A stretch of 37,938 nt of DNA. It comes from Candidatus Sulfopaludibacter sp. SbA3. Lineage in GTDB: Bacteria; Acidobacteriota; Terriglobia; 20CM-2-55-15. The notes under the pieces were generated by a model. The model ran no database searches. It was given only the letters and a program-made list of their open reading frames with translations, and was not told where the DNA came from. Where the stretch lies: positions 1 to 37,938 of the forward strand of contig CAMBFR010000028.1 of assembly GCA_945865815.1 (NCBI GenBank), given 5' to 3'. Positions 495-34,644 of this stretch are shown here, in pieces (the stretch's first letter is position 1; each line of letters starts with the position of its first letter). Made by a program: the position numbers and the translations under genes.

Positions 495-1088
495 ATGAAT
501 TTCGATACGAACCACCCCGTCTGCGCCGCTTCGGTGGCTTCGCGGCATTCTCCTGATGGCGCAGCCACCCCTCCTAACTCAGGAGGGGAGTTGCGGACGC
601 GAGGCCAGGCGACCGTGGAGATGGCTCTTGCGCTGGTCGCGGGCCTCGTTCCCCTGACGCTTGGATTGATCGCGTTCGCTGAAATCGGCTGGACGTATCA
701 CGCCCTTACCACGATCACGCGGCAGGCCGCCCGCTATGCCGGCACGCACTGCTGGCAGGACGAATCGGGTTCCAATGTCTCTAATTGGATACAGGCCAAC
801 GCGCCATTGTTTCCCGATCGCTCGCAACTGACGACCGGCGAGATACAGATCCAGGTGAGCTACTGGATGCATGATCCGGTTACGCGCGAGAGCGTGCCAT
901 TCACGTGTGCCGGCAGTTGCAGCGCCCAATGTATTCCCGACTCGGTGACGGTCAGCATCAGCGGATACGAGTTTAATCACTTCCTGCAGTTGCTCGGTCT
1001 GCCGCCACTGCAGGTTCCACCGTTTTCCACGACCGTAGAGATCGAGAGCGCGGGAGCAAACCCGGAGACGGGTATTTCGGCTCCCTGA
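495..1088 (+). CDS. TadE-like protein with a palindromic repeat unit in its 5' coding region
   Basis: From the ATG at 495 this is 197 residues. The TadE motif (RGQATVEMALALVAG) appears only at about residue 37. Residues ~6-32 are encoded by a repeat unit (511-592) found elsewhere in the window in intergenic DNA, so this extension looks acquired. The repeat is bridged without a stop. A TTG at 591 would give a normal-length TadE start directly before the motif, and the repeat's AGGAGGGGAG (581-590) would serve as its ribosome-binding site, though spacing is short. The ATG at 495 lies one base after the upstream stop and is probably the ancestral start. The C-terminal domain contains several Cys residues, as in its neighbour. 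The likely role is a minor pseudopilin of the Tad pilus. Confidence 0.8.
   Translation: MNFDTNHPVCAASVASRHSPDGAATPPNSGGELRTRGQATVEMALALVAGLVPLTLGLIAFAEIGWTYHALTTITRQAARYAGTHCWQDESGSNVSNWIQANAPLFPDRSQLTTGEIQIQVSYWMHDPVTRESVPFTCAGSCSAQCIPDSVTVSISGYEFNHFLQLLGLPPLQVPPFSTTVEIESAGANPETGISAP
511..592 (+). repeat. Single palindromic repeat unit (REP-like singlet) inside tadE-like gene
   Basis: The unit starts ACCACCCCGTCTGCGCC and ends GCAGCCACCCCTCCT, a 5-base loop and AGGAGGGGAGTT. These ends match the right-hand unit of the paired elements at 3644-3878 and, inverted, the left-hand unit at 34422-34641. The 8-bp terminal stem is at 568-575 and 581-588. Only one unit is present here, and it lies wholly within coding sequence. 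Confidence 0.85.
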
Positions 1089-3642: not shown

Positions 3643-3643
3643 A

Positions 3644-3878
3644 AACTCCCCTCCTGGATTAGGAGGGGTGCCGTTCGCGTTTTTCAGCGAACGGCGGGGT
3701 GGTGTATACGGCGCGAAGCCACCCTATGGATATTCGCGCAGCGCACCGATTTGAATGAGCGCTACGCGAGCATCCATACGGTGGCTTCGCGTCATTGCGT
3801 ACCACCCCGTCTGCGCCAATAAGGAACGGGACCATTCCCTGGTGGTGCAGCCACCCCTCCTAAGACAGGAGGGGAGTT
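3644..3878. repeat. Paired palindromic repeat (REPIN-like) between cpaF and tadB
   Basis: The element begins AACTCCCCTCCT and ends AGGAGGGGAGTT, and each end folds into a small hairpin with a 5-7 base loop. Inside are nested inverted segments: CGGGGTGGT pairs with ACCACCCCG, and a segment reading GCGAAGCCACC pairs with GGTGGCTTCGC. A separate hairpin is formed by CCGTTCGC and GCGAACGG. The 50 bases at 3729-3778 recur exactly, inverted, at 34498-34547. It starts one base after the cpaF stop codon and fills nearly all of the 272-bp gap before tadB. Confidence 0.9.
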
Positions 3879-13227: not shown

Positions 13228-13247
13228 ACGTTACCACGCCAGACAAA

Positions 13248-13438
13248 AACTCCCCTCCTCAGATGAGGAGGGGTGGCTGCGCAAAAAGAAAACGGCGCGA
13301 AGCCACCGAAGCGGCGCAGACGGGGTGGTGTTGATCAAGCAATCTCTTGAACCAACCACCCCGTCCGCTCCTTTTAAAGGTAGCTTCGCTGCATTTCTTG
13401 AGGTCGCGTCCACCCCTCCTTATCCAAGGAGGGGAGTT
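13248..13438. repeat. Paired palindromic repeat (REPIN-like), shorter variant
   Basis: Starts AACTCCCCTCCT and ends AAGGAGGGGAGTT, with terminal hairpins at both ends. The inner GACGGGGTGGT and ACCACCCCGTC pair with each other. The central stretch differs from the copies at 3644 and 34422, and part of the right unit is diverged (GCGTCCACCCC instead of GCAGCCACCCC). It sits between the 3' end of icd and the 5' end of the EamA gene. Confidence 0.88.
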
Positions 13439-13450
13439 TTACACAATCCG

Positions 13451-26054: not shown

Positions 26055-26079
26055 GTGATCGAGTCGAATCGCCTTCCGG

Positions 26080-26230
26080 AAATTGTGAAATTGGACGAAT
26101 CCTGCATCCTAAGTCCCGAAATCCCGAAATCTTGAATTGGACTGTTCCTCGAAACCACGGCGCATGGCTCATGCGGCCCAATCTGATATTTCGGGATTTA
26201 AGATGTAGGATTCGTCCAATTTCAAAATTT
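26080..26230. repeat. 151-bp inverted repeat, MITE-like
   Basis: Arms of 43 bases at 26080-26122 and 26188-26230 are inverted complements with about five differences; both contain ATTGGACGAATCCT. The left arm carries a tandem ATCCCGAA duplication (26113-26128). The middle 65 bases include a second, weaker inverted pair. It occupies most of the 198-bp gap between the ligase gene start and the stop of the ABC permease. No open frame or transposase is inside. It could be a small non-autonomous element or a long RNA hairpin. Confidence 0.75.
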
Positions 26231-26252
26231 CCCCTCTGTTCCCACGCGGAGT

Positions 26253-34421: not shown

Positions 34422-34641
34422 ACTCCCCTCCTGTCTTAGGAGGGGTGGCTGCGCCGCAGGCGCAGACGGGGTGGTACGGAATGACGCGAAGCCACCTTAT
34501 GGATGCTCGCGTAGCGCTCATTCAAATCGGTGCGCTGCGCGAATATCTATAGGGTGGCTTCGCAGCATCAATTGATTGGACACCACCCCGCCGTTCGCTG
34601 AAAAACGCGAACGGCTCCCCTCCTAATCCAGGAGGGGAGTT
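34422..34641. repeat. Paired palindromic repeat (REPIN-like), inverted relative to the copy at 3644
   Basis: Starts ACTCCCCTCCT and ends AGGAGGGGAGT. Its interior is the reverse complement of the 3644-3878 copy, with 50 identical bases at 34498-34547 and the CCGTTCGC/GCGAACGG hairpin now near the right end. TGCGCC and GGCGCA form an extra small hairpin near 34450. It fills most of the 305-bp gap between the DUF1572 gene and lemA. Confidence 0.9.
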
Positions 34642-34644
34642 TTT
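34617..34644 (+). terminator. Terminator-like hairpin formed by the repeat's right end
   Basis: CCCCTCCT (34617-34624), a 5-base loop, AGGAGGGG (34630-34637), two bases, then TTTTT (34640-34644). This has the form of an intrinsic terminator on the plus strand, separating the DUF1572 gene from lemA. The stem is the shared end of the repeat family; the T-run is local. Confidence 0.5.

Follow-up and report, generated by a model that had tools for sequence, protein, structure and literature searches.

Palindromic repeats inside bacterial genes have been described in several groups. Rickettsia palindromic elements (RPEs) lie in genes about half of the time, are found in many proteins and sit within the mature protein (PMC10969869). 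REP/REPIN and TIR repeats are known in bacteria, including acidobacterial ones, and REPs within genes have been reported (PMC3733652, PMC3116915). In Yersinia, an insertion of the YPAL/RU-2 repeat forms part of the signal peptide of YPO1552 (PMC2229807). Type 4 pilins begin with a hydrophilic leader, which varies in length and has Gly or Ala as its last residue; a hydrophobic segment comes next, in many cases with Glu at position five (PMC10191384). The leader is cytoplasmic and is removed by a prepilin peptidase that cuts on the cytoplasmic side; in Tad pili, TadE and TadF are minor pilins and TadV is the peptidase (PMC10191384). A search of titles and abstracts, with most subscription journals outside its reach, found no report of prepilin leaders with palindromic insertions.

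Here, we describe a palindromic half-element inserted in the leader region of a TadE-like pseudopilin gene, tadE2. The window, by which we mean the whole stretch of DNA that was analysed, is the 37,938-nt contig 28 of a 4.34-Mb acidobacterial draft genome (G000) assembled into 193 contigs. The gene lies between tadE1, the 5' end of which is missing at the contig edge, and the tadZ/tadA genes, with tadZ-, tadA- and tadB/C-type genes downstream. A first-pass annotation of the sequence had proposed that the repeat either became protein-coding or re-founded the start of translation. The features needed to compare these readings are as follows (no strand is given for the double copies).

2–493, + strand: tadE1, TadE-like pseudopilin (Pfam TadE, 44.7 bits), stop TGA at 491–493
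484–489, + strand: GGGAAG, probable tadE2 ribosome-binding site within the final tadE1 codons (anti-SD duplex -4.3 kcal/mol)
495–1088, + strand: tadE2, second TadE-like pseudopilin gene, 197 codons (ORF and Pfam)
495–605, + strand: predicted prepilin-type leader, 37 codons, ending in Gly37 and followed by QATVE with Glu at +5 (motif in 51 of 51 orthologues)
509–592, + strand: inserted palindromic half-element, 84 nt or 28 codons, in frame (genome matches and flank joining)
568–588, + strand: terminal hairpin of the element, CCCCTCCT-AACTC-AGGAGGGG, which buries AGGAGG
591–593, + strand: in-frame TTG formed at the insert junction (sequence), candidate alternative start with a 5-residue leader
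3643–3878: double (inverted pair) element copy between tadA and the next tad gene
13246–13440: double copy from a second subfamily, matched at up to 96% identity by sister-species copies
34422–34642: double element copy

Results

The repeat in the 5' coding region of tadE2 is a genuine member of a dispersed family, with 71 matches in G000, of which the best are 90–93% identical over 82–84 nt (E 1e-27 to 4e-26), and it lies in frame within the ORF at 495–1088, ahead of the TadE motif. The first-pass annotation had located it correctly, but the bounds it gave (511–592, about 27 residues) are better placed at 509–592. It was also right that AGGAGGGGAG at 581–590 is followed directly by an in-frame TTG, which is a junction codon with TT from the repeat and G from the host gene. 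Joining the flanks without the 84 nt gives ATG AAT TTC GAT AC/G CGG ACG CGA GGC CAG, or MNFDTRTRG/QATVEM, with the frame unchanged (slashes mark the join and the predicted cut, respectively), and removing the 138-nt insert of the sister species (G001) gives MIFDSRSRG/QATVEM. These empty-site leaders have nine residues each and align without gaps. Short leaders of similar appearance, with no apparent repeat, are found in other genera (MRGNSRGSRG, VFRRSSRG, MSFPGFRPMRG, and VRHRG in G003). Judged by its flanks, the element is within the tadE2 coding sequence, after codon 4, and no target-site duplication is apparent there.

Downstream of the insert, tadE2 has the prepilin-type motif G/xxxxE and a hydrophobic segment (G/QATVEMALALVAGLVPLTLG). 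The Pfam TadE match at 37–80 covers the whole profile at 21.9 bits, against a cutoff of 22.9 (E 1.9e-4), and the mature part is conserved between the two species (dN/dS 0.083). Since tadE2 has G37/QATVE, the repeat-encoded residues fall in the leader, upstream of Gly37, the predicted prepilin-peptidase cut site; that cleavage occurs after this glycine is suggested by homology and by the motif. Two A24 peptidases are encoded in G000, and the one of 171 aa is probably TadV-like, as expected from its missing methylase domain and from the rcpC/cpaB gene that it adjoins.

The proposal that the repeat became coding is well supported. Orthologue start codons lie at the tadE1 stop or overlap it, and ATG495 occupies this same position; many orthologues have a G-rich, GGAGG-like sequence at the place of GGGAAG, a region (483–489) that is computed to be about 38% unpaired in G000. 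The reading frame runs unbroken through the repeat in all six repeat-bearing genes, namely those of the two species of the genus and four other orthologues, and in five of the six the repeat is followed by no ATG, GTG or TTG. An open frame alone is not unusual, given that two of the three sense frames of the tadE2 copy are free of stops and that the upstream frame would stay open through a randomly chosen family member with P ~0.18 in G000 and ~0.12 in G001.

These chance values also bear on the other proposal, in which the repeat re-founded translation, its AGGAGG (581–586) driving TTG591 with a five-residue leader while the upstream frame is open by chance (P ~0.12–0.18 for a single copy). 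AGGAGG would pair strongly with the anti-SD of 16S rRNA (-10.8 kcal/mol), and a five-residue leader matches the length of the one in G003. However, the spacing to TTG591 is just 4 nt, TTG is a weak start, and AGGAGG is approximately 99% paired within the repeat's own CCCCTCCT/AGGAGGGG hairpin. In addition, an in-frame TTG after the repeat occurs in G000 only; the sister-species TTG is out of frame, leaving no ATG, GTG or TTG in frame between its repeat and the TadE motif, and the four other repeat-bearing orthologues likewise have no in-frame start there. Nor are copies of the element elsewhere clearly gene starts: among 201 element ends, 25 lie near a start codon with an ORF of at least 60 aa, mostly frames that look spurious by eye. 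We therefore regard re-founded translation as very unlikely at tadE2, and as a general property of the element, donation of a ribosome site was rejected, given that these 201 ends yielded no clear second case. Most likely, translation begins at ATG495 and includes the repeat, which is then lost when the leader is removed; TTG591 may serve as a minor start in G000. If the protein is cut after Gly37, the mature product is predicted to be identical from either start, so N-terminal sequencing of the mature protein cannot show which start is used.

Two other loci have elements close to probable starts. At L073, a second GGAGG and an ATG (AGGAGGGGAGATGGGGAGGAATCATGGCT) come shortly after the end of an element, which may affect the start of that gene. 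At L003:1501–1583, a singlet precedes a miaB-like gene by about 40 nt; it can be read through in an open frame, and the probable start lies downstream of the element.

The family has 70 matches in the sister genome. Its commonest form is an inverted double of two halves, approximately 195–235 bp long, with terminal inverted repeats (AACTCCCCTCCT...AGGAGGGGAGTT) as in MITEs, whereas only one half is present in tadE2 and at two other places in the window. The exact core pattern was counted 36 times in G000, 22 times in G001 and 29 times in G009, a more distant family member, and was absent from 50 genomes tested outside the host's family. Most copies other than that in tadE2 are intergenic. In a screen of 58 element clusters, the tadE2 copies alone were inside a recognisable gene; the other long spanning frames that we scanned were upstream extensions or had no Pfam family and were rejected as intragenic cases. 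A known RNA family was also rejected. The sole Rfam match, to MIR1858 on the double element at 3670–3829 (E 2e-4, 39 bits against a gathering score of 137), was taken as a chance hit to a GC-rich palindrome. Separately, the window holds 45-nt inverted arms at 26078–26232, 91% complementary, 65 nt apart and unrelated to the tadE2 element, which may be another palindromic element or a terminator-like structure.

The tadE2 insertion points of G000 and G001 are no more than about one codon apart, as would fit a single ancient insertion in the ancestor of the genus. The two copies belong to different subfamilies, though, being 72% alike when each is 92% like other copies, and simple vertical descent of one copy is not supported by the copy tree. 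Later overwriting by gene conversion could reconcile these observations, and the G001 copy is indeed closest to one that lies in its own operon, at a distance of about 1.7 kb. Against this, a second intergenic gap (L019:1364–1584 and L047:1430–1583) has elements of different subfamilies, apparently at different points, in the two species. We give a single insertion followed by conversion, as opposed to separate insertions, slightly less than an even chance. Further elements in the tad operon lie in the tadA/tadC gap of G000 and the tadZ/tadA gap of G001.

When 399 genomes of the class were searched at the protein level, with the TadE domain as the only basis of selection, 53 gave matches and 51 orthologues had a readable 5' end. 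An N-terminal extension common to all orthologues, the outcome that the first-pass annotation had named as speaking against a role of the repeat, was looked for in these 51 and not found. Leaders have 23 residues or fewer in 45 of the 51 (the search for repeat fragments did not extend to every short leader) and 35–55 residues in the remaining six: 37 in G000, 55 in G001, 35 in G019, 43 in G192, 47 in G362 and 50 in G325. Every one of the six long leaders contains a dispersed palindromic repeat and has an uninterrupted frame that begins with a start codon at the tadE1 stop, and the repeats belong to three unrelated families in three lineages. In G019, from another family (L039:1254–1355, contig JAPKYU010000368.1), the leader contains an unrelated GCGGATT palindrome repeat with 96 matches in that genome, and the only canonical in-frame start is a TTG at the repeat edge, seven bases past the GGAGG of tadE1. 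Three species of g82 (G192, L104; G362, L106; G325, L113) have a third repeat family, CCGCTCCCTCACGGTCGCGG / CCGCTCCCTCACGGTCGCGGCTCGG..., with 32–46 matches per genome, downstream of a start common to many members of family f4. From sequence comparison, these cases point to a minimum of three independent captures, perhaps four, with three mutually unrelated repeats involved. As a control, tadE1 showed no comparable forced long leader, although tadE1 starts are too ambiguous for a count.

The g82 leaders differ in length by whole codons (4, 3 and 7). Their substitutions are spread evenly over the codon positions (5/5/6 over 32 codons), compared with 2/0/21 over 150 codons of the mature part. 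This pattern, with the frame kept and the sequence free, is as expected for a peptide that is translated but discarded.

The free divergence of the g82 leaders also bears on a regulatory role, in which a hairpin in the tadE1–tadE2 mRNA would slow ribosomes or alter mRNA stability and so set the TadE1/TadE2 ratio. Copies of the element do fold into a stable GC hairpin, the tad operons of the two species each contain elements repeatedly, and small mobile repeats with such roles have been reported in other bacteria (PMC2229807). However, the repeats of the three lineages are unrelated in sequence and most orthologues appear to have no repeat, which together with the g82 divergence makes a regulatory role rather unlikely.

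Discussion

We consider it highly probable that a half-element was inserted in the tadE2 leader, is translated from ATG495 and is cut off after Gly37, with the mature pseudopilin unchanged. In the proposed sequence of events, a non-autonomous palindromic repeat, half of a MITE/REPIN-like inverted element, would have entered tadE2 after codon 4 and lengthened the pre-pseudopilin leader by exactly 28 codons. The native ATG495, which abuts the tadE1 stop, would still initiate, the ribosome reading through the repeat into the TadE domain, and a TadV-type prepilin peptidase would then remove the lengthened leader after Gly37, leaving the mature pseudopilin unaltered. An unchanged mature protein would account both for the tolerance of this insertion and for the capture of unrelated repeats at the equivalent site in other lineages; on this basis the insertion is presumably selectively neutral. 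Tolerance could also follow simply from the location at a cistron junction, and most other copies of the element are indeed intergenic.

Prepilin leaders may thus be a recurrent safe harbour for unrelated palindromic repeats, which we propose tentatively, as possible rather than probable; the G019 repeat even seems to supply the only usable start. Unrelated families would be able to enter here because the frame must stay but the residues are thrown away. The leader then seems to be a spot where a gene absorbs selfish DNA without change to the finished protein. The predicted removal of the peptide gives a concrete reason for selfish repeats inside a conserved reading frame, and the leaders show a frame constraint without a sequence constraint at a defined place. 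There is also a warning for annotation, in that the long N-termini predicted for such pseudopilins are likely to be captured repeats.

The in-frame presence of repeats in bacterial genes is already known; what appears new is their repeated capture by a prepilin leader that is predicted to be cleaved. Like RPEs, the element is a palindromic repeat of approximately 100 bp that has entered a conserved protein gene in frame, with translation predicted. The RPE sequence family is restricted to Rickettsia, whereas the present host is acidobacterial, judging by its sister genome and relatives, and frequent in-frame insertion into protein genes is not seen for the present element: tadE2 is the only clear intragenic case of the 58 clusters, and its insert belongs to a leader whose removal is predicted. 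Like REP/REPIN sequences, the copies are short GC-rich palindromes, mostly intergenic and often in inverted pairs, but no RAYT was found adjoining any copy in G000, and the sole Y1_Tnp of this 193-contig assembly is in a 3.3-kb locus free of the element. The Yersinia YPAL/RU-2 case is alike in that a mobile repeat supplies coding sequence to an N-terminal targeting region. There, the repeat is part of the signal itself, whereas here it merely lengthens a cytoplasmic leader before the predicted cleavage Gly.
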